DNA from: a virus
DNA: 57,037 nucleotides
IMG/VR virus record: IMGVR_UViG_3300021062_000017
Coordinates: 1-57,037 of that record
Strand: one strand, 5' to 3'
Positions within the stretch are counted from its first letter, which is position 1, and the number at the start of each line of letters is the position of its first letter. The notes below the pieces were generated by a model. It did not search any database, was not told where the DNA came from, and saw only the letters and a list, made by a program, of their open reading frames with translations. Positions 2,953 to 17,597 of the stretch are shown here, one piece after another. The position numbers and the translations under genes are program-made.

Positions 2953-5495
2953 CAGGCGGCCTCCGCTTCCAGTGCATCGAACAGCGACGGCATCGACACC
3001 TCGCGCTCGGCCGCCTGCAGGTAGTGCACCTGGTCGGCGAAGTAGGCCCCGGAAAGCTCGCTGCCGCCGCCGCGCCGGCCCTTCAGGATCGCGCGGTAGG
3101 GCACCGTGCCGAGGCCGCAGAACGGGTCATAGACCAGCTCGCCGCGGTTGCTGAAGCGCTCGATCAGGCGGTCCACGATGTCGAACTGCAGGGGGCAGAC
3201 GTGCTGCTCGACGTTGCGCTTCGACTGCTCGCCGTTCAGCGTGATCATGCGGTTCACGTCGTGCCACACCAGCGGGTGATGCGAGCCGGGCGCGAGGCTC
3301 ATGAACGTGGAAGGCAGTGCGCCCCTCTCCTGCAGCGCCGCTCCGATGCGGACGTGGGCCTCGAAGTCATAGACGCCGCGCAGGCTCCATTCGGTGAACA
3401 GCTTGGCCAGCTTGTCGGGCCCGTAGCTGGCCAGCTCGTCGGGGGTCAGCTGTCGGTTGCCGCTGCTGCGCCAGAAGGCATGCGCATCGACCTGCCAGCG
3501 CGCCAGGCTGTACTCCTCGACCGTCTTCTGGATCCTGCTGTCGGCGTAGCCCTTCGAGCGATCGGTCTGCGGCTTGTGGAACAGCAGGACGTACTCAGGC
3601 GAGCCGACGCCCATCTTCGAGCCGTCCTTGCGCATCTCCGTGTACCCGAGGCGATAGGTCTGGTTGTTCTCCCGCACCACGTCGGTGACGACGGTGATCA
3701 TCCCGAGGTAGTCGAAGCCATGGCCGTGCAGGCCCAGCGCCGGCAGGCCGCTGTAGTGCGCAATGGCCTCGGCGTGGAATGGGCTGCTGGTGGGCAGGCC
3801 CTTGCCGGTGACGTTGCCGAAGTCGATTCGGTCCTTGACGTGGATCGCAGCGATGCGGCCGGGCTTCAGGATCCGCAGCAGCTCCGGGGTCAGGAAGTCC
3901 ATCTGCCGCCAGAAGTGGCGGTTGTCCTCGGTGTGGCCGAAGTCGTTGTAGCTCGGCGTGTACTCGTAGTGGTTGGCGAATGGGATCGAGGTCACCACCA
4001 GGTCGACCGAGGCCTCCGGCCGCCGGCGCGCTTCCAGCACGGCATCGTTGTGCGCGACCTGGAAATGCTGGCCTGCCACTTCGCGCCGTTCCACGCCGAT
4101 GGTCCGTTCCAGCGCCGTCTCCATCGACAGCCGATCGAGCCCGTATTCGCGCACGAGCGCCGCCATGCGGATCTGCTGCTCGTCGTGGCGCCGCCACTTC
4201 GCCTGCAGGCTGGCCACGATCTCGCGCTCGGCCTCGGTGTGCACGATGTCGATGCGTACCCGCTCGGCCTGGCCGAAGCGGTAGGTGCGGTGCACGGCCT
4301 GGATGAAGTCGTTGAACTTGTGGCCGATGCCCGAGAAGATCTCGCGATGGCAGTGCCGCTGAAAGTTGCAGCCGCTGCCGGCGATGATCGGCTTCGTGCT
4401 CAGCACGCGGTGTTGGCCGTCGCTGAAGCCGACGATGCGAGCCTCGCGCTCGTCGAGATCCTGGGCGCCCCATACGCTGACGGCCTCCGGAATTGCAGCC
4501 TGGATGGCGTGCCGCTCGTCCTCAAGGTCGTGCCACACGATGAAGTGCTCAGTCGGCGCCTCGTCGATCAGCGCCTTCACCTTGGCGACGCGGGCCGGCA
4601 GGCTGTCGCGCTTCTCGCGCGCCGCGGCCGGCAGGCTCATTGCGACGTCCTGGATAAGCAGGCCCTGACCATCGCGATCGGCGCCGGCGGCGCTGTAGTC
4701 GGACTCGATCTCGTGCCAGCGCACGTCCAGCGCGGGCAGCACGTAGCCGGCGTCATCGTGGCCGAGGTCACTGGGCTTCGTTATGAAGACGGCCCAGCTC
4801 GCCACCCACAGCCAGAACTCGCGTTCCTTGTGCGGGTACAGCGTCAGGTTGCCGGCCTGCGTGCTGTCGCGCTGGAAGAAGCGCGTCAGCGCCTGGCCGG
4901 TGTCCATCACGCCGAGGTAGCCGGCGTAGTGGATCAGCTCCTTGTACCGGTTCGGGTCCGGCGTGGCGGTGTAGACCGACTTGAACTCGACCGACGCGAA
5001 GGCGGGCAGGAATTCCTGGTAGGTCTTTGAGCCGAAGCTGCGCAGGATGCTGGCCTCGTCAAGCCCGGCGGCGCGAAAGCGTGACGGCGTCACGTTGCCC
5101 TCGCGCACGGCCTCGTAGTTCGTGAGGTAGATCGTCGACGGTGCGTCGATCTCACTGTCGCGGCGGATGAACCGCAGGTCGATGGCGCAGTCGCCGGTGA
5201 AGCGCTGCTCGACCTCGCGGAAGAACTCCTGCCGCACGCCGAGCGGAATCACGCCGAGGCGATACGCATCGGGGAAGCGGCGGCCGATCTGGCGCAGGAC
5301 CTCGAGGTGCGTGGCGGTCTTGTGCAGGCCGAAGCTGGCAAAGCAGGCCCGGCTGCCGCCCTTGAGGATCCAGCGCGCGATGTCGCGGGTGTGCGGCTTC
5401 AGCGCGGGGTTGATCTCGTCGGCCGGCACCTCGAAGCCGGTGTGCCGCGCGAGCTGAATCTTGTCGCGCAGGAACTGCAGGTAGGGGTCGCTCAT
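2952..5495 (-). CDS. SNF2-like helicase fused to DNA N4/N6-methyltransferase
   Basis: An 847-residue two-part enzyme. Residues 1-420 have helicase motifs: a Walker A-like FGLHKT at 55-60, LDEAS (DExx box) at 145-149, TATP at 176-179, STKPIIAGSGCNF near 366, and the motif VI-like QAVHRTYRFGQ at 399-409. Residues about 480-847 are an amino-methyltransferase with motif IV before motif I: TSIPF at 502-506 and DPFCGLG at 790-796. The canonical motif IV is (D/N/S)PP(Y/F/W), so SIPF is a variant. Such fusions occur in phages and plausibly modify phage DNA against restriction. The gene lies between an HTH protein and the O-like protein in one coupled operon. Confidence 0.8.
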   Translation of the reverse strand: MSDPYLQFLRDKIQLARHTGFEVPADEINPALKPHTRDIARWILKGGSRACFASFGLHKTATHLEVLRQIGRRFPDAYRLGVIPLGVRQEFFREVEQRFTGDCAIDLRFIRRDSEIDAPSTIYLTNYEAVREGNVTPSRFRAAGLDEASILRSFGSKTYQEFLPAFASVEFKSVYTATPDPNRYKELIHYAGYLGVMDTGQALTRFFQRDSTQAGNLTLYPHKEREFWLWVASWAVFITKPSDLGHDDAGYVLPALDVRWHEIESDYSAAGADRDGQGLLIQDVAMSLPAAAREKRDSLPARVAKVKALIDEAPTEHFIVWHDLEDERHAIQAAIPEAVSVWGAQDLDEREARIVGFSDGQHRVLSTKPIIAGSGCNFQRHCHREIFSGIGHKFNDFIQAVHRTYRFGQAERVRIDIVHTEAEREIVASLQAKWRRHDEQQIRMAALVREYGLDRLSMETALERTIGVERREVAGQHFQVAHNDAVLEARRRPEASVDLVVTSIPFANHYEYTPSYNDFGHTEDNRHFWRQMDFLTPELLRILKPGRIAAIHVKDRIDFGNVTGKGLPTSSPFHAEAIAHYSGLPALGLHGHGFDYLGMITVVTDVVRENNQTYRLGYTEMRKDGSKMGVGSPEYVLLFHKPQTDRSKGYADSRIQKTVEEYSLARWQVDAHAFWRSSGNRQLTPDELASYGPDKLAKLFTEWSLRGVYDFEAHVRIGAALQERGALPSTFMSLAPGSHHPLVWHDVNRMITLNGEQSKRNVEQHVCPLQFDIVDRLIERFSNRGELVYDPFCGLGTVPYRAILKGRRGGGSELSGAYFADQVHYLQAAEREVSMPSLFDALEAEAA

Positions 5496-6584: not shown

Positions 6585-8546
6585 TCAGGCCGCGCGCTGC
6601 AGCTGCTGCTCGGCGTAGTTCGCGCGAACGAGCGCAGCCGCCACCGGCGGGCACACGCTGTTGCCGCACATGCGTACCTGCGCCGACTTCGAAAGCGCGC
6701 AGCCATCCGCGCCGCGGTCGATGGCGTAGGTGTCGGGGAAGCCCTGCGCTCGGTACAGCTCACGCGGCTGCAGCATCCGCATGCCGATGTCGGCGATGAG
6801 GTAGTCCTCGCCTGCGACCGTGACCAGCCCGAAGCGGTCCTTCGTGGTCACGGTGTGCAGCGGCTCACGCAGGTCCGGGTCCTGGTCGGTGCCGTAGTAC
6901 TTCAGCAGCAGCGCGCGGACCTCGGCGTGATGGCCGCCGGTGGTGATCGTGTGCAGCGGTGCTTCGGTGGCGCCGCCGGCATGGCCGGTGGTGTTCGTCA
7001 TCAGGTGCGACGACACGAGCGCGTGATGCTCGCCCTGGGCGCTGACGGTGTGCAGCGGCTGGTCCGGGTCGGCGCTGCTGCTGGTGCCGCGCAGCTTGGC
7101 CAGGCTCGCGGCGACGATTGCGGTGTCGCCCTTCGCGGTCACCGTGCGCGTGGGTCGATCGGCGCCGTAGGCAGGCGACTGGCCTTGTCCTTGCCGGCCG
7201 CCGACGCCGACCAGATGCGCCGCCACCACGCCGTGCTTCGCGCCGTCTGCCATCGCGGTCGGCATCGGGTGGCGCAGGTCCTGCGCGGTCCGTCCGGCCT
7301 GGGGCTCGCCGCCGTAGTGCTTGACCACGTGGGCAGCGACAAGATGGTGATGGTCCTGGGTCGTGATCGTGCTGACCGGACCGCTCAGCGGCACGCCGGG
7401 GCCTTCGTTGCCGCCGTAGTGCTTCGCCAGGAACGCGGCGACCAGCCCGTGCTTCTGTCCGTCGACCGCGGTGCCCAACGGCTTGTCCAGGCCCGGCACG
7501 CGCGGCGCCTGGCCGGGCCGCTCGCCGTAGCCGGTCTGCACCAGCGTGGGCGACACCAGCAGGTGCTCGGCCTTGCTGGTGATGGTCGACACCGGCTCTT
7601 CGACGCTGTTCGAGTACTTGCCGTTGCCACCGGTCTGGCCGATGCGGGCGATCGTGGGCGTGATGAGCGCCTTCTCGCCGCGGTTGGCGCCCGTGATGGT
7701 CCGCATCGGCTCGTCGATGTCGTTGATGCGAATGTCGCCGGGATGGGTGACGGGCGCGATGAAAGGCTTCGGCGCGTCGATGACATAGCGCTTGATGCCG
7801 TGCGCGATCCGCCGCAGCGTGGCCTCGGCCAGCGGCCGCTCGCGCTCGAAGATGGACGGGCACGGCAGCGACCAGTCGATGCAGTCGGCCGCGGTGCGCC
7901 AGGGCAGCAGGCCGCTACCCTTCGCGGGCTTCGCGGCGTGGGTCGGCTTCGGCCACACGATCGGCATGCCGTCGCGGCGCGCGACCAGGAACAGGCGCTT
8001 GCGGATCGTCGGTGCGCCGTAGTCGCACGCGCGCAGCTCGCGCCACTCGACGTGATAGCCGAGGGTGCGAAGCTGGGCCACCCAGCGCTGGAAGGTCTGA
8101 CCCTTGCGGCGCTGGCACGGCATGTTGTTCTCGTCGAGCGGGCCCCACGTCTGGAACTCTTCGACGTTCTCCAGGCAGATGACGCGCGGCCGCGCCAGCT
8201 TCGCCCACTTGATGACGACCCAGGCCAGGCCCCGGATCTTCTTCGACACCGGCTTGCCGCCCTTGGCCTTGCTGAAGTGCTTGCAGTCCGGCGAGGCCCA
8301 CAGCAATCCGACCGGCTGACCATCGGTCACCGCCAGGGGATCGACCTCGAACACGTCGGACACGAAGTGCCGGGTCTGCGGGTGGTTGGCCTGGTGCAGC
8401 GACACCGCTTCGGGGTCGTGGTTGACCGCGATGTCGACGTGCCGGCCTAGCGCCTGCTCGATGCCGGTACTCGCGCCGCCGCCGCCGGCGAAGAGGTCGA
8501 TCACGAGCTCGTGCGCGAGCGGCAGGATGAATTGGCGGGCCGTCAC
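6585..8546 (-). CDS. DNA C5-cytosine methyltransferase with nine internal repeats
   Basis: A 653-residue enzyme that transfers methyl groups from SAM to cytosine in DNA. Motif I is DLFAGGGGASTG (17-28), the catalytic Cys is C88 in ASPDCKHFS (usually PPC), motif VI is ENV (126-128), motif VIII ends IRKRLF (181-186), motif IX is QPRELYRAQGFP (593-604), and motif X holds GNSVCPP (628-634). The region from 279 to about 575, where the target-recognition domain should be, is made of nine repeats anchored on xPxxTxT at 279, 317, 355, 389, 426, 464, 496, 529 and 561. Normal family members are 300-450 residues. The GTG at 8546 overlaps the upstream stop. It likely protects phage DNA from restriction. 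Confidence 0.85.
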   Translation of the reverse strand: MTARQFILPLAHELVIDLFAGGGGASTGIEQALGRHVDIAVNHDPEAVSLHQANHPQTRHFVSDVFEVDPLAVTDGQPVGLLWASPDCKHFSKAKGGKPVSKKIRGLAWVVIKWAKLARPRVICLENVEEFQTWGPLDENNMPCQRRKGQTFQRWVAQLRTLGYHVEWRELRACDYGAPTIRKRLFLVARRDGMPIVWPKPTHAAKPAKGSGLLPWRTAADCIDWSLPCPSIFERERPLAEATLRRIAHGIKRYVIDAPKPFIAPVTHPGDIRINDIDEPMRTITGANRGEKALITPTIARIGQTGGNGKYSNSVEEPVSTITSKAEHLLVSPTLVQTGYGERPGQAPRVPGLDKPLGTAVDGQKHGLVAAFLAKHYGGNEGPGVPLSGPVSTITTQDHHHLVAAHVVKHYGGEPQAGRTAQDLRHPMPTAMADGAKHGVVAAHLVGVGGRQGQGQSPAYGADRPTRTVTAKGDTAIVAASLAKLRGTSSSADPDQPLHTVSAQGEHHALVSSHLMTNTTGHAGGATEAPLHTITTGGHHAEVRALLLKYYGTDQDPDLREPLHTVTTKDRFGLVTVAGEDYLIADIGMRMLQPRELYRAQGFPDTYAIDRGADGCALSKSAQVRMCGNSVCPPVAAALVRANYAEQQLQRAA

Positions 8547-8848
8547 GCTGCCGCCCTTCCCTCGCGCTGCAACTCAGCCAGCCGGGCCTGCAGCTGCGCC
8601 GGCTCGGCCGCGGGCATTCGAGCCACCAAGTCGTAGCCGAGCCGGTGGGCCATCCACCGCAAGGGCTCTACGCTCTTGGTTGCCATCATGAGCAGCACCA
8701 TGCGGATGGCCCACTGCTCGCCCAGGCGGCGCATGAGGCGCGAGAAGTAGCCCTGCGAGACCTGGACGAATTCGGCGATCTCACGATCGTCCAATCCGCT
8801 GTCGCGCGCGGCCTCGGAGAGGACCTGCGAAAGCGTCTTCTGCTTCAT
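8543..8848 (-). CDS. CII-like phage regulatory protein (HTH)
   Basis: A 101-residue protein starting MKQKTLSQVLSEAARDSG. A helix-turn-helix lies at about residues 20-42 (DREIAEFVQVSQGYFSRLMRR), followed by a helical region LRWMAHRLGYDLVARM. Length, fold order and position, downstream of Cro on the leftward early transcript and before the replication genes, match CII-type regulators of temperate phages (CP76 type rather than lambda CII). Activation of repressor or integrase promoters would be its expected role; target sites were not identified with confidence. Confidence 0.6.
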   Translation of the reverse strand: MKQKTLSQVLSEAARDSGLDDREIAEFVQVSQGYFSRLMRRLGEQWAIRMVLLMMATKSVEPLRWMAHRLGYDLVARMPAAEPAQLQARLAELQREGRAAA

Positions 8849-9674: not shown

Positions 9675-9749
9675 TGGCACACCGTGCGGGATTCGAACCC
9701 GCGTTACCCGGGCGAAAACCGGGGTTCCTGACCACTGGAAGAACGGTGC
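9675..9749 (-). tRNA. tRNA-Glu (UUC)
   Basis: A full cloverleaf of 75 bases including an encoded CCA. The acceptor stem is GCACCGT paired with ACGGTGT (one G-U pair), the D-arm TTCC...GGAA, and the anticodon stem CCCGG/CCGGG encloses loop TTTTCGC, anticodon TTC. The T-arm is GCGGG/CCCGC with loop TTCGAAT, and the discriminator base is G. It lies inside the leftward early transcript between Cro and the CII-like genes. It may supply glutamate charging capacity to the phage. Confidence 0.9.
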
Positions 9750-11137: not shown

Positions 11138-11166
11138 ATACTAAACGACGCGTTTAGGAATTGCAA
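11138..11166 (-). promoter_or_regulatory. Leftward early promoter (pR-like) of cro
   Basis: On the minus strand, -35 TTGCAA (11161-11166), a 17-base spacer and -10 TAGTAT (11138-11143). The predicted start lies within a few bases of the cro ATG at 11129. The spacer holds the perfect palindrome CTAAACG-ACG-CGTTTAG, so repressor binding should block polymerase. Confidence 0.6.
11141..11157. promoter_or_regulatory. Operator 1 of the CI/Cro switch
   Basis: Perfect palindrome CTAAACGACGCGTTTAG with core AAAC-N5-GTTT at 11143-11155. It overlaps the spacer and -10 of the cro promoter and the -10-like TAGGAA of the repressor gene. The same core occurs 22 bp away at 11165 and twice near 12414-12448. 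Confidence 0.65.
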
Positions 11167-11178
11167 ACATGGCGTTTG
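11164..11178. promoter_or_regulatory. Operator 2 of the CI/Cro switch, overlapping the repressor start
   Basis: CAAACATGGCGTTTG, core AAAC-N5-GTTT at 11165-11177, exactly 22 bp (two turns) from operator 1. It contains the ATG of the CI-like gene, so binding could also control repressor synthesis. A weaker half-site (GTTT at 11197-11200) follows. Confidence 0.6.
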
Positions 11179-11666
11179 GGCCCTACTCCACATTTCGTTT
11201 AATGGAGGATCCGGTGTGGCATAGGCTTGACCAGGAGCTCGCGTCGCGTCGCGAGCGCCACCTCGTGCCCGGTTCTTGGGCTGAACTGGCTCGTGCGCTC
11301 GACACCAGCGAGCAACGGATCAACAACTGGAAGCGCCGCGGCGTGCCGCCCAAACAGCACGCGGCCGTCGCCGCAGCACTGGGGTGGTCAGTGGATCGCC
11401 TGATCGGCCTCGACGAACCCCAGCGGGCGCTCGCCACACCAAATGGCAATATTCCACTCACGGAAGTGGAAAAAGTCGCAGCGGCTTATGCGAACCTCAG
11501 TCCTGCTGAGCGGCGTCGCTTTCTCCATCTCCTTGCGGCAGCAAGAGACGACGCGCCAATGCTCGGCATCGACTGGGAGACGCTTTGGACTACACGGAGC
11601 AAGGAGCAGTTGATCGACGAGACGGCGCCGAGACGGGTGGGCAACAAGAAGCGGAGACTCGGGTGA
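11169..11666 (+). CDS. CI-like phage repressor
   Basis: A 165-residue DNA-binding protein with an N-terminal helix-turn-helix at about residues 36-72 (SWAELARALDTSEQRINNWKRRG, then PPKQHAAVAAALGWSVDRLIG). The C-terminal half is helical (LTEVEKVAAAYANLSPAERRRFLHLL) with a basic tail. No Ala-Gly cleavage site or Ser/Lys dyad of LexA-type repressors is seen, so induction by RecA-driven self-cleavage is unlikely from this sequence. The ATG at 11169 has AGGA nine bases upstream and overlaps operator 2; an ATG at 11202 has no ribosome site. It should hold both early promoters off in the lysogen. Confidence 0.75.
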   Translation: MAFGPYSTFRLMEDPVWHRLDQELASRRERHLVPGSWAELARALDTSEQRINNWKRRGVPPKQHAAVAAALGWSVDRLIGLDEPQRALATPNGNIPLTEVEKVAAAYANLSPAERRRFLHLLAAARDDAPMLGIDWETLWTTRSKEQLIDETAPRRVGNKKRRLG

Positions 11667-11908
11667 GGCCGCCGTTCCGCCTGGTCGCCCTTGATGGCGT
11701 ATCGCGCGACACGGTGTCGTGCTTGCGCGAGTTGCTGGCCCGGGCCGAGCGCGGCGAGGTGATCGGCGTGGCCTACGCGGCGATGCACCGGCGACGGAAG
11801 TACACCGTGCACGCGTGCGGCGAGGCCGATCGCAACCCGACGTTTGCGCGCGGCATGGTGGATGCGCTGAGCGACGAGCTCGCGAAGCGCGTGTGGGGCG
11901 ACAGCTGA
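11663..11908 (+). CDS. Small protein coupled to the repressor
   Basis: An 81-residue protein read from the GTG at 11663, which overlaps the repressor stop as GTGA. An in-frame upstream ATG at 11585 lies inside the repressor gene and is less likely. The sequence RLVALDGVSRDTVSCLRELLARAERGEVIGVAYAAM, followed by a short RRRKYTVHACGEA strand, looks like a compact alpha/beta domain. It would be expressed with CI in the lysogen. The function is unknown; accessory proteins at this position can modulate immunity. Confidence 0.6.
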   Translation: MRPPFRLVALDGVSRDTVSCLRELLARAERGEVIGVAYAAMHRRRKYTVHACGEADRNPTFARGMVDALSDELAKRVWGDS

Positions 11909-11923
11909 GGAAGGAGGCGGTTG

Positions 11924-12346
11924 ATGCGAACTCTCTTGGGGGCACTGTGGCTGCTCGCCGCGACAGCGGCCATTGCGCAGGCCCCAGTCGACCATCTGGG
12001 GCGATACCGTTCCCACACGGCGACAGCCATTTACCTCTGCCGTTTGGCGCTCGATACGGCCCTGCTGGAGGCTGAGGCCCAAGTGGCGGCAAGCGAGCGC
12101 CGCGACTGGAGGGGGTGTTTGCTGGAGCAGCGCACCGAGGGCAAGCGGCTGCTCGACGCGTCTCTGAAGGTGACGAAGAAGCCAGCGGTGCAGGCGGCAC
12201 TGAAGTCCTACCACGTGTCGTTCATCGCGGCCCTTGACGGCATCGAGCCAGCACCCGACGAGCGGCGCATCAGTTACCGCGCACGGCAGGCCGGCCTCAC
12301 GGACAAGGTCAATGAAGCATGGGCGCGCGTCGAAGTAGAACAGTGA
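11924..12346 (+). CDS. Exported protein of the immunity operon
   Basis: A 140-residue protein with a clear Sec signal peptide: MRT, a hydrophobic core LLGALWLLAATAAIA and a QA cleavage site near residue 20. The mature part is helical with two Cys residues (YLCRLAL and WRGCLLEQRTEGKR) that could form a disulfide in the periplasm. A strong Shine-Dalgarno AAGGAGG (11911-11917) lies six bases before the ATG. It is the third gene after CI, before the terminator at 12378, so it is probably made in lysogens. That makes it a candidate lysogenic conversion or superinfection exclusion factor; this is inferred from position only. Confidence 0.65.
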   Translation: MRTLLGALWLLAATAAIAQAPVDHLGRYRSHTATAIYLCRLALDTALLEAEAQVAASERRDWRGCLLEQRTEGKRLLDASLKVTKKPAVQAALKSYHVSFIAALDGIEPAPDERRISYRARQAGLTDKVNEAWARVEVEQ

Positions 12347-12377
12347 CCCGCTGACGCCGACGCCGGCGCCTGAGATC

Positions 12378-12402
12378 AGCCCGCAGCTCGCGGGCTTTTC
12401 TT
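12378..12402 (+). terminator. Intrinsic terminator of the immunity operon
   Basis: Seven-pair stem AGCCCGC/GCGGGCT with a five-base loop, followed by TTTTCTT. It lies 32 bases after the exported-protein stop and immediately before the second operator pair, so it isolates the lysogenic transcript from the rightward early operon. Confidence 0.75.
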
Positions 12403-12412
12403 CGTCCGCCAC

Positions 12413-12453
12413 TAAACATTCCGTTTGACAACACCAAACATGATGTTTAGGAT
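12413..12453 (+). promoter_or_regulatory. Rightward early promoter (pL-like) with two operators
   Basis: A strong promoter TTGACA (12425-12430), 17-base spacer, TAGGAT (12448-12453). Two AAAC-N5-GTTT operators overlap it: 12414-12426, which runs into the -35, and 12436-12448, which fills the spacer and touches the -10. Their spacing is 22 bp, identical to the pair at the CI/Cro switch. Repression by the CI-like protein is the expected control. The first gene starts 30 bases downstream. Confidence 0.7.
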
Positions 12454-12482: not shown

Positions 12483-12698
12483 ATGCACCCAGCCACCGCC
12501 ACCCCAGCAGCCGCGCCGCCCGACCACCCCTCCGGCTCGCTCGCCGCTCAGGGCTTCCGCTTCCTGCGCCGCAATGGCGTCTTCGCCTGGGCCATCCCCG
12601 AGGTGGTCGGCACCGACGCGCCCGACTTCCTCGACTGCACCGACATGGCTGAAGACGAGTTCGAGGCCGTGGTGCGCGCAACCCCGGGAGCCGCGTGA
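12483..12698 (+). CDS. First gene of the rightward early operon
   Basis: A 71-residue protein starting MHPATATPAAAPPDH with GGAGGG upstream of the ATG. After a disordered N-terminus it has GFRFLRRNGVFAWAIPEVVG and an acidic helix DMAEDEFEAVVRA. Its stop overlaps the next ATG (TGATG). It sits at the lambda N position, but no Arg-rich boxB-binding motif is seen, so an antitermination role is not supported. Confidence 0.5.
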   Translation: MHPATATPAAAPPDHPSGSLAAQGFRFLRRNGVFAWAIPEVVGTDAPDFLDCTDMAEDEFEAVVRATPGAA

Positions 12699-13129
12699 TG
12701 AGCCTCGCCCTCGCCCCGCGTTTCGACCGCGACCTCGGCCCCTACCTCGCCCACCCCCTCGACCCCCGCACCGACGACTTCGACGAGGTCTACACCCGCG
12801 ACCGCGCCCTCGACCAGGCCACCGACGAATGCGACGCCACGCCGGCGCAGTTCGCCGACTGGCTGGCCAAGGTCACCGACGTGCCGCCGAAGCGCGCCGG
12901 CTACGAGCCGCAGAACATCCGGCACCTCGAACGCCGGTTCGCCACCGGTGACGACCTGCAGCCCTGGGAGCTGGCCGCGCTGATGATCGCCGGCCGCGCG
13001 CAGCACGTTATGCGCGCGCGTCAGCTGCTGCTGGAGCTGTACCGCGAGGCGCACGGTGAGCAGATCCTGCAGCGCGCCCGGCAGCTGGTCGAGCAGTCCG
13101 GCGGCGATCCGGAAGCGGTGGTGCTGTGA
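12698..13129 (+). CDS. Early protein of unknown function
   Basis: A 143-residue protein with an acidic N-terminal half (DDFDEVYTRDRALDQATDE) and a helical C-terminal half (ELAALMIAGRAQHVMRARQLLLELY, then EQILQRARQLVEQSGG). The start ATG overlaps the upstream stop, and its stop overlaps the next ATG. No family is recognised. Confidence 0.5.
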   Translation: MSLALAPRFDRDLGPYLAHPLDPRTDDFDEVYTRDRALDQATDECDATPAQFADWLAKVTDVPPKRAGYEPQNIRHLERRFATGDDLQPWELAALMIAGRAQHVMRARQLLLELYREAHGEQILQRARQLVEQSGGDPEAVVL

Positions 13130-13350
13130 TGGCTGGCCAGCGCACACCCACACCCGGCCGCGTCGTCGGCGCACCCAGCTGCGCGCGCTTCGCTGTCGTC
13201 GTCGACCCCGGGACGCTGATGGAGCGGGTCGACGTCTACGCCAGCACCGCGAAGAGTGCCTACGAATGGGCTGCCGATCTCCGCGACGACGGCCTGCAGG
13301 TCGACGTCATGCGCATCACGCCCAGCGGCGAACTGACCACGGAGTTCTGA
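13129..13350 (+). CDS. Small early protein
   Basis: A 73-residue protein with a beta-alpha-beta look: RFAVVVDPGTLMERVDVYA, then the helix STAKSAYEWAADLRDDG and strand VDVMRITPSGEL. This could be a small ferredoxin-like fold. It is the third gene of the coupled operon. The function is unknown. Confidence 0.5.
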   Translation: MAGQRTPTPGRVVGAPSCARFAVVVDPGTLMERVDVYASTAKSAYEWAADLRDDGLQVDVMRITPSGELTTEF

Positions 13351-13352
13351 CG

Positions 13353-13682
13353 ATGTTCGGCACCACCGAAAGCGCCGTCGCCCTGGCCGCGACGATCCAC
13401 CAGGCGACAGCGCCGCGGTTCCTGCTGTACCCGGCCATCGTCAGCATCCGCCGCCGGCTCGAGCGATGCGAGTTGGACCATCTTCGCGAGCACGTCGCCG
13501 AGCAGGCCGAGCGCATCGGGCAGCTGGAGCGCGAACTGCGCTGGGCCGAGCAGAGCGCGGAGATGTGGCAGCACACAGCCGAGGCGGCGCAGGAGTATCT
13601 CGACGACGGCGTGCGCATCGGTATCACGGTCGACGGCGCGGTCGGCATCGTGGTCGACGACGCGGTTTGGAGCCCGTCGTGA
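13353..13682 (+). CDS. Coiled-coil early protein
   Basis: A 109-residue protein. Residues about 30-80 form a continuous heptad-rich helix (RRLERCELDHLREHVAEQAERIG, then LERELRWAEQSAEMWQHTAEAAQ), typical of a coiled coil. A short C-terminal strand pair (VRIGITVDGAVGIVVDDAVW) follows. Its stop overlaps the next GTG as GTGA. Confidence 0.5.
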   Translation: MFGTTESAVALAATIHQATAPRFLLYPAIVSIRRRLERCELDHLREHVAEQAERIGQLERELRWAEQSAEMWQHTAEAAQEYLDDGVRIGITVDGAVGIVVDDAVWSPS

Positions 13683-13945
13683 GCACGTGGCCCGCTCCGC
13701 AGCCCATCGAGTCGGCCGCCGGCCGCTCCGATTTCGCGCCATTGGTCGAGCACAGCCGCTTCCCGGTCTCGGTGCTCGACGACAGCTGCGCCACCGAGGG
13801 CGCCGCGCACGAGCCGATCAGCTACGAGGACGGCATCGCCGAGATGGAGGCCGACCCGCTGGTGCTGGTCGCGACCATCGTCGGCGCGGTGCTGGGCTAC
13901 CTGCTGTCGACGCTCTTTCCCAACGGATTCCAGGCGCTGCCCTGA
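13679..13945 (+). CDS. Small membrane-anchored early protein
   Basis: An 88-residue protein from a GTG that overlaps the upstream stop. The first 60 residues are soluble and acidic. A C-terminal hydrophobic segment (PLVLVATIVGAVLGYLLSTLF) forms one predicted membrane helix, so it is tail-anchored in the inner membrane. The function is unknown; lambda-like left operons often encode membrane factors such as exclusion or cell-division inhibitors. Confidence 0.5.
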   Translation: MSTWPAPQPIESAAGRSDFAPLVEHSRFPVSVLDDSCATEGAAHEPISYEDGIAEMEADPLVLVATIVGAVLGYLLSTLFPNGFQALP

Positions 13946-13965
13946 CGTTCAACCAAGGAACCCAC

Positions 13966-14508
13966 ATGCTGAGCTTCAACGAAGAAGACCTGAAGGCCGC
14001 CGTCGTCCAGAAGGCTGCGGACGAATTCATCCAAGGCGCCGACGACCTCGACGGCTTGGTGGCCAAGGAAGTGAAGCGTCGCCTCGACGCGATCTTCGTC
14101 GAGCGCGCCGAGAAGCAGATCGCCGACGCCATCGACGAGGCGGTGCGTGACGGCTTCAACCGCGAGTACCAGCGCGTCACGGCGTGGGGCGAGCCCAGCG
14201 GACCGAAGACGTCTATCCGCGCCGAGCTCGAAAAGACCGTCGGCGCCTACTGGAGCCAGAGCGTCGACAAGCGGACCGGCGCGGCCTCCACATCCGACTA
14301 CAACTCGGTGACCCGTGCCGAGTACCTGATGACGCAGATCTGCGCCAAGGACTTCACCGAGGGCATGAAGCAGTCCGTCGCCAACGTGCCTGGCGCCCTC
14401 AAGGATGGCCTGCGAGTGCAGCTCGCCGCGCAGATGGAGTCGATGCTGTCGAACCTCTTCCACGTCAAGAGCCTGGCGGACCAGGGCAAGGTCGAGAAGC
14501 CGTGGTGA
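13966..14508 (+). CDS. Conserved-looking phage early protein
   Basis: A 180-residue soluble protein starting MLSFNEEDLKAAVVQKAADEF with AAGGA before the ATG. It is helical and charged throughout (VAKEVKRRLDAIFVERAEKQIADAIDEAVRDG). The phrase IRAELEKTVGAYWSQSVDKRTG lies in the middle. No catalytic motif is seen. It begins a set of overlapping genes leading to RecT, so a role in recombination or replication support is possible. Confidence 0.5.
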   Translation: MLSFNEEDLKAAVVQKAADEFIQGADDLDGLVAKEVKRRLDAIFVERAEKQIADAIDEAVRDGFNREYQRVTAWGEPSGPKTSIRAELEKTVGAYWSQSVDKRTGAASTSDYNSVTRAEYLMTQICAKDFTEGMKQSVANVPGALKDGLRVQLAAQMESMLSNLFHVKSLADQGKVEKPW

Positions 14509-14702
14509 ACCGCCGCAATCCCAGCCCCGCCGCGCGCCGCATCGTCATCGGCGCCCTGCACGGCATGCCGCGGATCCACGCCTCAATGGCGGACGCGTTC
14601 CCGGACGAGCGCTTTCGCGCCGTCGAGCACCACCACGCGCCGGGCCTGCTGGCCATCCTCACCCGCGCACTTCGCGCGGTACTCACGAAGGGATCGAAGT
14701 GA
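14505..14702 (+). CDS. Small basic protein
   Basis: A 65-residue protein from a GTG overlapping the previous stop. It starts MNRRNPSPAARRIVIGALHGM and is rich in Arg and His, with a C-terminal hydrophobic helix LLAILTRALRAVL. Its stop overlaps the GTG of the coiled-coil gene. The function is unknown. Confidence 0.4.
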   Translation: MNRRNPSPAARRIVIGALHGMPRIHASMADAFPDERFRAVEHHHAPGLLAILTRALRAVLTKGSK

Positions 14703-15985
14703 CCACCGAAACGAAAGAGCGGCCCACCGAGGTCGCGTCCGAAGTCGTCGACCGCGCTGAAGTCCGCGACGGGAAGGCGATCGTCCGTTACGACCGCACG
14801 GCGGCGGCGCTGGCCGAGCTGAAGGCCCGCTACGCCGGCGCGAAGTTCGACTGCACCACCACGGCAGGCGATAAGGCCGCTCGCGCCGCGCGGCAGGAGC
14901 TGGTGCAATTGCGCACATCCCTGGACCGCAAGCGCCAGGAATTCAAGGCCCCTGCCCTGGCGTTCGGCAAGGCGATCGACTCCGAGGCCAAGCGGCTGAC
15001 GGCCGAGATCGAGGCGCTGGAACTGCCGATCGACGCGCAGATCAAGGCCGACGAGGCACGCCGCGAGCGCGAGCGCCAGGCGAAGGCCGAGGCCGAGGCG
15101 GTCCGCCTTGCCGCCATCCAGGACCGCCTGGAGGGCATCCGCGAGGGCCTGCAGGACGCCATGATGGCGAAGACCGCCGCCGACGTGCAGCGTGAGATCG
15201 ACCACCGCATCCAGAACTTCGGCCAGCCGAAGCGCGAACAGTTCGAGGAGTTCTACGACCAGGCTGTCGCCTTGTGGGAGCAGACCCTGGCCGGTATGCG
15301 CCGCGTGCTCGTGCAGCGCCAGGAGCAGGAGGTCGAAGCGGCCCGCGTCGCGGCCGAGCGCGCGGAACTGGAGCGCCTGCGCGCCGAGGCCGCCGCCCGC
15401 GAGCAGGCCGAGCGCGAGCGCATCGCCGCCGAGCAGCGCGCCGAAGCCGAGAAGCTGGCCAAGGCCCGGGCTGAGATCGAGGCCCGGGAGCGCGCCGTCC
15501 GCGAGGAGCAGGCCCGACTCGATGCCCTCGCCGCCGCCGAGCGCAAGCGTCTCGACGAAGAGGCGGCCGCCCGCCGGGCCGAGGCCGACCGCCAGGCCCG
15601 CGAAGCGCGCGAGGCCGAGGAGCGCCGGCTGGCCGCGGAGCGCGCCGAGCTGCAGCGCCAGCAGGCCGAGGAAGCAGCCCGGATCGCCGCCCAGCGCGCC
15701 GAAGCGGAGCGGGCCGAGGCTGAGGCCGCCGCGGCCCGACGGCGCGAGCAGGAGGCCGCGGAGGCGGCCGAGCGTCAGGTGCGCGACGCGGCGCCGCTGC
15801 TGCTGAAGTCGATGCAGGCCATCGTCGCCACGTTCGACGCGCTGCCCGAGGCGACGCGCGACGCGCTGGACAGGCTGCTGGCGCTGGCCATCGTCAATGG
15901 CCGCATGGCCATCGCTGTCGCGACCGAGAAGGACGGCGCGCCGCTCGAAGGCGGCCCGTTCGCCGACGAAGACATCCCCTACTGA
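14699..15985 (+). CDS. Long coiled-coil protein, DUF1351-like, before RecT
   Basis: A 428-residue protein. Residues 1-140 match the pattern of DUF1351-type phage proteins (AIVRYDRTAAALAELKARYAG, then LRTSLDRKRQEFKAPALAFGK). Residues about 205-355 are an almost unbroken Ala/Glu/Arg helix of heptads. The C-terminal 70 residues form a short domain (DAAPLLLKSMQAIVATFDALP). Proteins of this kind are commonly next to RecT, where they are thought to help single-strand annealing, though the mechanism is not established. The start is a GTG overlapping the upstream stop. The repetitive codons make this stretch a likely site for indels. Confidence 0.6.
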   Translation: MTTETKERPTEVASEVVDRAEVRDGKAIVRYDRTAAALAELKARYAGAKFDCTTTAGDKAARAARQELVQLRTSLDRKRQEFKAPALAFGKAIDSEAKRLTAEIEALELPIDAQIKADEARRERERQAKAEAEAVRLAAIQDRLEGIREGLQDAMMAKTAADVQREIDHRIQNFGQPKREQFEEFYDQAVALWEQTLAGMRRVLVQRQEQEVEAARVAAERAELERLRAEAAAREQAERERIAAEQRAEAEKLAKARAEIEARERAVREEQARLDALAAAERKRLDEEAAARRAEADRQAREAREAEERRLAAERAELQRQQAEEAARIAAQRAEAERAEAEAAAARRREQEAAEAAERQVRDAAPLLLKSMQAIVATFDALPEATRDALDRLLALAIVNGRMAIAVATEKDGAPLEGGPFADEDIPY

Positions 15986-16032
15986 TTCCCCACCCACGCC
16001 GACAGAGTCCCGGCACGCAGGAGAACGACCCC

Positions 16033-16980
16033 ATGACCACCGAAACTGTTGACCGCGCCACGGGCGAGATCACGACCGCCACGGCGCACGCCGAGGCGCA
16101 GGCGCTGCCCAACGGCCAGGCTGAGCTGCAGCGCCTGCTGGAACGCCAGCCCTTCAGCGTGCGCGACATGCTGACCCACGACACGCTCGACAAGGTGATG
16201 CGGCTTGCCGAGGTGATGGCCTCCAGCCGCATCACCGTCCCGAAGCACCTGCAGGGCAACGTCGGCGACTGCGCAGCCATCATCGGCCAGGCGATGCGCT
16301 GGGGCATGGACCACAACGCGGTGGCGCAGAAGACGCACCTGGTGAACGGCGCGCTCGGCTACGAGGCGCAACTCATCATCGCGGCACTGAACAACTCGCC
16401 GCTGCTGGCGACCCGGCTGAACTTCGAGTGGTTCGGCGACTGGACCAGCGTCAACGGGAAGGAAGACCGCAGCGCCGATCGCGGCGTGCGCGTGTTCGCC
16501 ACCCTTCGCGGCGAGCGCGAACCGCGCGTGCTGGAGGTCAGCATGGCCCAGGTCGGGCCGGTGCGCAATTCGCCGAACTGGGTAGCCGACCCGCGCCAGC
16601 AGATTGCCTACCTGGCCGCGAAGCGCTGGGGCCGCCTGCACGCGCCAGACGTGATCCTCGGCGTCTACACGCCCGACGAGATCGAGGAGATGGTGCCGGC
16701 CAACGCAGCTGGCCCGCACGCGCTGCCGCGCAATGCGCCGCCTGCCACCGTGGCCAAGGCCGCCGCGGAACAGACCCGCCCGGAGCGCACGCCCGCGCAC
16801 GTCAAGATCATCGAGACGCTGGAGCACACCGCCTTCAAGGAAGGCACCGAGGGCTTCCGCGTGGCCTGGGAGGCGCTGTCGAAGGGCGACCGGGCCGCCA
16901 TCGGCATCGAAGAGCGCGACCGCATCAAGGCCATCGGCGCCGAGACGGACGAGCGAGTCGCCAAGGGTGTCGCGCCGTGA
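16033..16980 (+). CDS. recT: RecT-family single-strand annealing protein
   Basis: A 315-residue protein. The core from about residue 55 to 230 has the RecT pattern: KVMRLAEVMASSRITVPKHL, then GDCAAIIGQAMRWGMDHNAV, then KTHLVNGALGYEAQLIIAALN, and AYLAAKRWGRLHAPDVILGVYT. It binds single-stranded DNA and anneals complementary strands. It is partnered by the YqaJ exonuclease, whose GTG overlaps its stop (GTGA). The pair corresponds to lambda Bet and Exo and should drive recombination-dependent repair and concatemer formation. Confidence 0.9.
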   Translation: MTTETVDRATGEITTATAHAEAQALPNGQAELQRLLERQPFSVRDMLTHDTLDKVMRLAEVMASSRITVPKHLQGNVGDCAAIIGQAMRWGMDHNAVAQKTHLVNGALGYEAQLIIAALNNSPLLATRLNFEWFGDWTSVNGKEDRSADRGVRVFATLRGEREPRVLEVSMAQVGPVRNSPNWVADPRQQIAYLAAKRWGRLHAPDVILGVYTPDEIEEMVPANAAGPHALPRNAPPATVAKAAAEQTRPERTPAHVKIIETLEHTAFKEGTEGFRVAWEALSKGDRAAIGIEERDRIKAIGAETDERVAKGVAP

Positions 16981-17597
16981 CCATCGAGCAGCGGACCGCC
17001 GAGTGGTTCGCCGCCAGGGCCGGCCGGATCACGGCCAGCCGGTTCGGCGACGTGATCTCGCGCACGCGCACCGGCCAGCCGACGTCGGAGCGCAAGCGCT
17101 ATCTCGCCGAGCTGGTCTTCGAGCGCACGGCGCAGGCTGCCCGGCACGAGATCAGCAGCCGGTCGCTGACGTGGGGCCAGGAGGTCGAGCCGTTCCAGAA
17201 GGAGGCCTTCGAGCTGGAGACCGGCCTGGTCGTGATGCCCGGCGGCTTCCACGTGCACCCGCGGTACCCGTTCATCGCGGCGAGCCCGGACGGCCTGATC
17301 GGCGCCGATGGCGGCCTGGAAATGAAATCGCCGCACTCGGAGGCGGTGCACGTGCAGACGCTGCTCGAAGGCATGCCGCCGGAGCACATGCCCCAGGTCC
17401 AAGGCGGCATGGCCTGCACCGGCCGGAGCTACTGGTACTTCAGCAGCTACGACCCCCGCCAGGCGCCGCACCTGCGCCTCTACGTCCAGCGCATCCCCCG
17501 GGATGACGCGTACATCGCGCGCTTGATCGCCGAGCTGCAGGCCTTCGAGGCCGAGGTGGCCGATGCCGTCGCGCGCCTGGAAAGGAAAGCAGCATGA
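16977..17597 (+). CDS. YqaJ-type viral exonuclease
   Basis: A 206-residue nuclease of the lambda Exo / YqaJ class. The N-terminus has the signature RTAEWFAARAGRITASRF. The catalytic core holds FIAASPDGLIG with the metal-binding Asp, then GLEMKSPHSEAVHV with the Glu-x-Lys motif, and MPQVQGGMACTGRSYWYF with the conserved Gln. It should digest one strand of linear duplex DNA 5' to 3' to feed RecT. The length matches the family. The start overlaps the RecT stop. Confidence 0.9.
   Translation: MTIEQRTAEWFAARAGRITASRFGDVISRTRTGQPTSERKRYLAELVFERTAQAARHEISSRSLTWGQEVEPFQKEAFELETGLVVMPGGFHVHPRYPFIAASPDGLIGADGGLEMKSPHSEAVHVQTLLEGMPPEHMPQVQGGMACTGRSYWYFSSYDPRQAPHLRLYVQRIPRDDAYIARLIAELQAFEAEVADAVARLERKAA

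Follow-up and report, generated by a model that had tools for sequence, protein, structure and literature searches.

A shared AAAC-N5-GTTT operator at two early promoters of a predicted lambda-type phage immunity region

Arrangement of the locus

The window, which is the whole stretch of DNA that was analysed (57,037 nucleotides, IMG/VR virus record IMGVR_UViG_3300021062_000017), contains a leftward gene for a Cro-like protein and a divergent rightward gene at the position of cI, with an operator region (OR) between them, and the cI gene is followed by two small genes, a terminator and a second operator region (OL), from which an early operon with RecT and an exonuclease leads away (Table 1). 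The order is the same as in lambda, where cro, OR, cI, accessory genes, OL and an early recombination operon follow each other. The start of the 140-aa ORF was reassigned from the sequence; the ORF list gave TTG 11921.

Table 1. Features of the locus, with positions in the window and predictions as discussed in the text.
Feature	Position	Strand	Remarks
Cro-like protein, 74 aa	10905..11129	-	PHROG 8008 'DNA binding protein', E 8e-21; weak YdaS_toxin match
Leftward early promoter PR (cro promoter), predicted from sequence	11138..11166	-	TTGCAA (11166-11161), N17, TAGTAT (11143-11138); geometry as in PL and in relatives with 22-bp spacing
Operator OR1, CTAAACGACGCGTTTAG	11143..11155	.	exact motif; PWM rank 4; overlaps PR spacer and -10
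Operator OR2, GCAAACATGGCGTTTGG	11165..11177	.	exact motif; PWM rank 3; overlaps two bases of PR -35
Probable degenerate third operator OR3, CI-proximal, TAAACGAAATGTGG (minus strand)	11188..11200	.	PWM rank 5 in the whole window; adjoins CI ATG 11202
CI-position repressor, 154 aa (165 aa from ATG 11169)	11202..11666	+	HTH with QRINNWKRRGVPP; short C-terminal region
81-aa ORF	11663..11908	+	start overlaps CI stop; conserved beside differing HTH repressors
140-aa ORF, ATG 11924	11924..12346	+	signal-peptide-like N terminus; between CI and OL
Terminator-like hairpin and T-rich tail	12378..12396	+	ends CI operon
Operator OL, distal site, CTAAACATTCCGTTTGA	12414..12426	.	exact motif; PWM rank 2; overlaps PL -35
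Rightward early promoter PL, predicted from sequence	12425..12453	+	TTGACA-N17-TAGGAT
Operator OL, proximal site, CCAAACATGATGTTTAG	12436..12448	.	exact motif; PWM rank 1; overlaps PL spacer and -10
Rightward early genes	12483..17597	+	RecT 16033-16980; RecE/YqaJ-type exonuclease ORF within 16428-17597

On the other side of the locus, a 101-aa leftward ORF (8543-8848) has weak CII-like matches (PHROG 101, 2345) and lies on the strand of cro and downstream of that gene, where a CII would be expected. The sole RNA gene found is a tRNA-Glu (TTC) at 9675-9749 on the minus strand, and the ORFs next to it resemble translated tRNA sequence. At 6585-8546, a 653-aa DNA methyltransferase is encoded, the PHROG match of which spans both ends with a long insertion in the middle of the protein.

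The operator motif and its conservation

An earlier note on this DNA had reported four copies of AAAC-N5-GTTT, beginning at 11143, 11165, 12414 and 12436, and all four are found at these positions, with 22 bp between the copies of each pair and 1271 bp from pair to pair (given there as 1.27 kb). The pairs had been called identical, which holds for their geometry but not for their sequences. Many further copies elsewhere had been named as an argument against an operator function; the entire 57,037-base record contains no exact copy besides these four, and at one mismatch there are two further matches only, both isolated. The comparison with random sequence that had been proposed gives about 0.1 expected copies against the four observed: 0.08 copies are expected from dinucleotide shuffles, none of 100 of which reached four, and in a Markov control of 400 sequences the mean was 0.11, with no close pair in any of them.

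As the search with the CI-position protein gave almost no relatives (only one, L001, in viral contigs, and none in genome contigs or annotated phages at E 1e-5), the survey was seeded on the Cro-like protein, homologs of which were gathered among viral contigs, in GTDB genomes and in phage records, and 77 CI/Cro gaps remained after removal of near-duplicates. These Cro relatives are 50-77% identical to that of the window. When one mismatch is allowed, 75 of the 77 non-redundant gaps contain one site or more, whereas for random stretches of 270 bp a rough hand estimate gives about 0.1 per locus. A PWM that was built from 86 sites of the relatives, with the window left out, ranks the four sites of the window first to fourth (scores 20.2, 19.7, 15.6 and 15.2), followed by OR3 with 5.0 and a next match with 1.9. 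Where both flanks were available, 45 of 57 relatives have a second pair in the direction of CI and none has one in the direction of Cro, and the two clusters are 0.9 to 3.8 kb apart.

Palindromes of this kind might arise by chance in promoter DNA, as the gaps have a GC content of about 50% while the phage has 68.5%, but shuffling of the two AT-richer gaps alone produced one copy or more in just 0.1-0.2% of the shuffles, and never two copies among 20,000. Together with the conservation among the relatives, these controls make the probability of a chance origin practically negligible, and it was rejected.

The family comprises the PHROG 8008 phages and prophages (for example Shewanella phage vB_Sb_QDWS and prophages of Cupriavidus, Burkholderia and Acinetobacter), which share with the window a homologous Cro-like protein and, at OR and in most cases also at OL, the TAAAC-N5-GTTTA operator; the window for its part has the Cro homology, the motif in the CI/Cro gap and the second cluster on the CI side. 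It differs from most of these relatives in its spacing, as they have mostly 24 bp and TTTAAT as -10, and about half of their CI proteins look S24-type (some 39 of 77, as judged from a simple G-x-S-M-x-P motif), which that of the window does not. The immunity relatives being proteobacterial, it is unusual that at 3100-5140 the DNA of the window matches methylase/helicase genes of numerous mycobacteriophages at about 75% identity.

Two promoters with nested operator pairs

The TTGACA-N17-TAGGAT promoter that had been described around the second pair is indeed present, and what had been overlooked in the CI/Cro gap, where only the pair was noted, is a leftward promoter and a probable third site. 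Both pairs are nested in the same register in an N17 sigma70 promoter, with the distal site on the -35 hexamer and the proximal one on the spacer and the -10.

The distance of 22 bp had been explained as two helical turns that suit cooperative dimers. It is found in both pairs, but it is not constant in the family: neighbouring OR1-OR2 sites are 20-24 bp apart in the relatives, most often 24 bp, and the sites of OL pairs 23-25 bp. It is the 17-bp spacer of the surrounding promoter that tends to be kept, rather than the spacing of the sites, and it is likely, though not proven, that the nesting explains the 22 bp at least as well as helical-turn cooperativity. That the promoter holding both sites sets the spacing, and protein-protein cooperativity does not, is the somewhat more probable view. 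The geometry is common to both pairs of the window, and the -10 begins 12 bp past the start of the proximal core at loci with 22 bp and 10 bp past it at loci with 23-24 bp, a shift of two bases between 22-bp and 24-bp loci among relatives that were scored with a mild preference for N17. With this preference, an N17 spacer is obtained in 48 of 54 relatives, but without it in only 36 of 54, and most 22-bp loci then take another hexamer. Lambda operators, moreover, bind cooperatively at a spacing of 23-24 bp, and thus both constraints may hold at once.

No clear PRM was found. The -35 hexamer of PR, TTGCAA at 11161-11166, is its own reverse complement and could also serve a rightward PRM, but the resulting TTGCAA-N17-TACTCC has a very weak -10 and is only a weak candidate.

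A probable third site at OR and the start of the repressor

Like in many of its relatives, OR of the window probably has three sites, not two. OR3 carries two mismatches, and in most of 20 simple shuffles the best match over 57 kb exceeded its PWM score, which alone is therefore not significant, and so the weight of this site rests on its position. The 75-bp gap that contains it is also where the third site of relatives is found, usually with a degenerate outer arm, although the OR3-OR2 spacing is 23 bp in the window and mostly 14-15 bp in the relatives.

The position of OR3 bears also on the repressor start codon, which had been placed within one of the operator copies. ATG 11169 does fall within the second copy, but translation probably does not begin there. 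In all of 70 relatives, an in-frame start follows the OR3-like site towards CI at a distance of no more than 36 bp, in a search that covered this side only, so that earlier starts may exist as well; and in L001, ATG 4734 immediately follows the third operator site (4716-4729). This placement of starts favours ATG 11202, directly after OR3, as the probable start of the window repressor.

Comparison with known switches

The arrangement as such is well known, being lambda-like and common to dozens of related phages. In lambda, repeated operators about 22-24 bp apart overlap PR and PL, three at OR and three at OL, and the CI protein has an S24 autocleavage domain. Like there, divergent genes for CI-type and Cro-type HTH proteins flank a shared operator array in the window, and a second promoter past the CI operon (OL/PL) carries the same operator motif and drives early genes; two clear sites and a degenerate one at OR and two at OL stand against the three plus three of lambda, the operator sequence is unrelated and the clusters are closer together. 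The switch of the window would thus work like that of lambda, but its CI differs with regard to RecA-dependent autocleavage, as no S24/LexA-type domain was found in the CI-position protein by domain and profile searches including PHROG.

The closest experimentally tested precedent is PaaR2/YdaS of CP-933P in E. coli O157:H7, where both proteins footprint the same overlapping intergenic repeats and both repress PL (PMC8630535). This PaaR2/YdaS/YdaT system has divergent CI-type and YdaS/Cro-type regulators, several palindromes over PRM and PR, similar operators at PL past the CI operon, and a CI analogue that shows no similarity in sequence to the CI of lambda (PMC8630535), all of which resembles the window. 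The CP-933P palindromes have been described as 18-bp with GTTTA outward and a half-site consensus GTTTAGTAA, and their binding has been shown (PMC8630535), whereas the sites of the window are predicted from sequence. The CI operon of CP-933P also contains the toxin-antitoxin pair paaA2-parE2 (PMC8630535), which has no counterpart in the window operon, where neither the 81-aa nor the 140-aa ORF has such matches. RacR/YdaS of the Rac prophage in E. coli K-12 is similar in its divergent regulators, its palindrome array in the gap and its YdaS-type HTH, but the palindromes are TTAGGC-N3-GCCTAA and the recognition segments PPSIYDW and PPSVNQW, and AAACN5GTTT is absent from the racR-ydaS gap even at two mismatches. 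In the open-access literature, the operator of the window was not found described for any phage switch.

The two regulators and a natural swap

Matches to PF15943 (YdaS type) are below the curated cut-off for both regulators (E 0.008 for Cro, 8.5e-06 for CI), and a PDB search gave only weak matches, to the Cro proteins 3bd1 and 1rzs (E 0.02-0.5), and nothing useful for the CI-position protein. Cro homologs carry the recognition segment QRVxNWxxRGIP, of which xNWxxRG is common to CI and Cro, and the profiles of the two proteins align with 96.5% probability. It is this shared segment and profile match, along with the CP-933P precedent, that argue for binding by both proteins.

L001 (IMG/VR contig 3300049049_000085) resembles the window DNA only at 11484-11901 in the stretch compared (79.6%). 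The C-terminal region of its CI is 71% and its 81-aa ORF 86% identical to those of the window, but its CI HTH does not align with the window HTH, and its divergent Cro-position protein has no similarity to the window Cro. Its clusters carry ATCGG-N4-CCGAT, with three copies at OR (4672, 4695, 4716) and a pair at OL (5777, 5801) that surrounds TTGACA-N17-GATACT after a hairpin. One mismatch is present in two of these five copies, and AAACN5GTTT is absent from the 26-kb contig. As the HTH, Cro and both operator clusters differ while the CI C-terminal region is kept, the motif evidently goes with the DNA-binding domains, but as they all change together, CI and Cro are not separated as binders by this comparison.

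The sites could be operators of the Cro-like protein alone, with the CI-position protein binding elsewhere or acting otherwise. Conservation strictly tracks Cro in a survey that was seeded on Cro homologs, and the CI of the window is a diverged representative, the C-terminal region of which is short, but the recognition pattern is common to both proteins, the HTH of the L001 CI has been replaced along with Cro and both operator clusters, and in CP-933P the two proteins bind the same region (PMC8630535), all of which makes an exclusive role of Cro improbable. The four palindromes, predicted from sequence, are almost certainly binding sites of both small regulators, which would choose between dormancy and lysis.

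The 81-aa ORF (also at L001:5204-5449, L126:3001-3237 and L127:3001-3189) is conserved at 52-86%, while the HTH of the preceding repressor differs each time. L126 and L127 have other HTH repressors, and AAACN5GTTT is absent from the stretches examined near their 81-aa relatives. The 81-aa protein could be a partner or an antirepressor of non-S24 repressors.

Model of the switch

It is very likely that the window contains a temperate phage's immunity region, organised as a lambda-type switch in which the TAAAC-N5-GTTTA palindromes would be bound by dimers of the CI-position repressor (11202-11666) as well as of the Cro-like protein (11129-10905), and the earlier idea that a CI/Cro-type switch shares its operators at two early promoters gains support from the relatives. 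The sites themselves, their nesting, the order of the genes, the conservation in the family and the covariation of the operator with the DNA-binding domains are what the sequences show; that each of the proteins binds, in which order the sites are filled, and whether cooperativity and looping take part is inferred from them. As a site pair covers the -35 as well as the spacer and -10, an occupied pair would block RNA polymerase. In a lysogen, CI would keep both early promoters silent, the leftward one of cro and the rightward one of the recombination operon, the weaker third site against the CI start may let either protein limit CI synthesis, and Cro would favour the lytic state.

An OR-OL loop through CI octamers, as in lambda, may be added to this but is rather doubtful as an essential part of the switch. 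The two clusters are at a distance that would allow it, their layout is conserved, and PaaR2 of CP-933P has been reported to octamerise (PMC8630535); but the window CI has no recognizable S24-type domain, two promoters that share an operator need no loop, and the separation of the clusters varies several-fold among relatives.

Significance

A wider and rather unlikely scenario, put forward as speculation, is that TAAAC-N5-GTTTA defines a widespread immunity class of proteobacterial phages, in which repressors that differ in their C-terminal regions have their operators in common, while the C-terminal region and the 81-aa gene recombine as a cassette with other HTH/Cro/operator sets and thereby give rise to heteroimmune phages; a CI without S24 would then be induced by a non-SOS route, possibly via the 81-aa protein. 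The window and L001 form a natural swap by which DNA specificity and the function of the repressor C-terminus could be studied separately. For the Cro family of PHROG 8008, the members of which are mostly annotated as hypothetical or antitoxin, the motif provides a concrete operator code, and with such a code immunity groups may be predicted directly from sequence.
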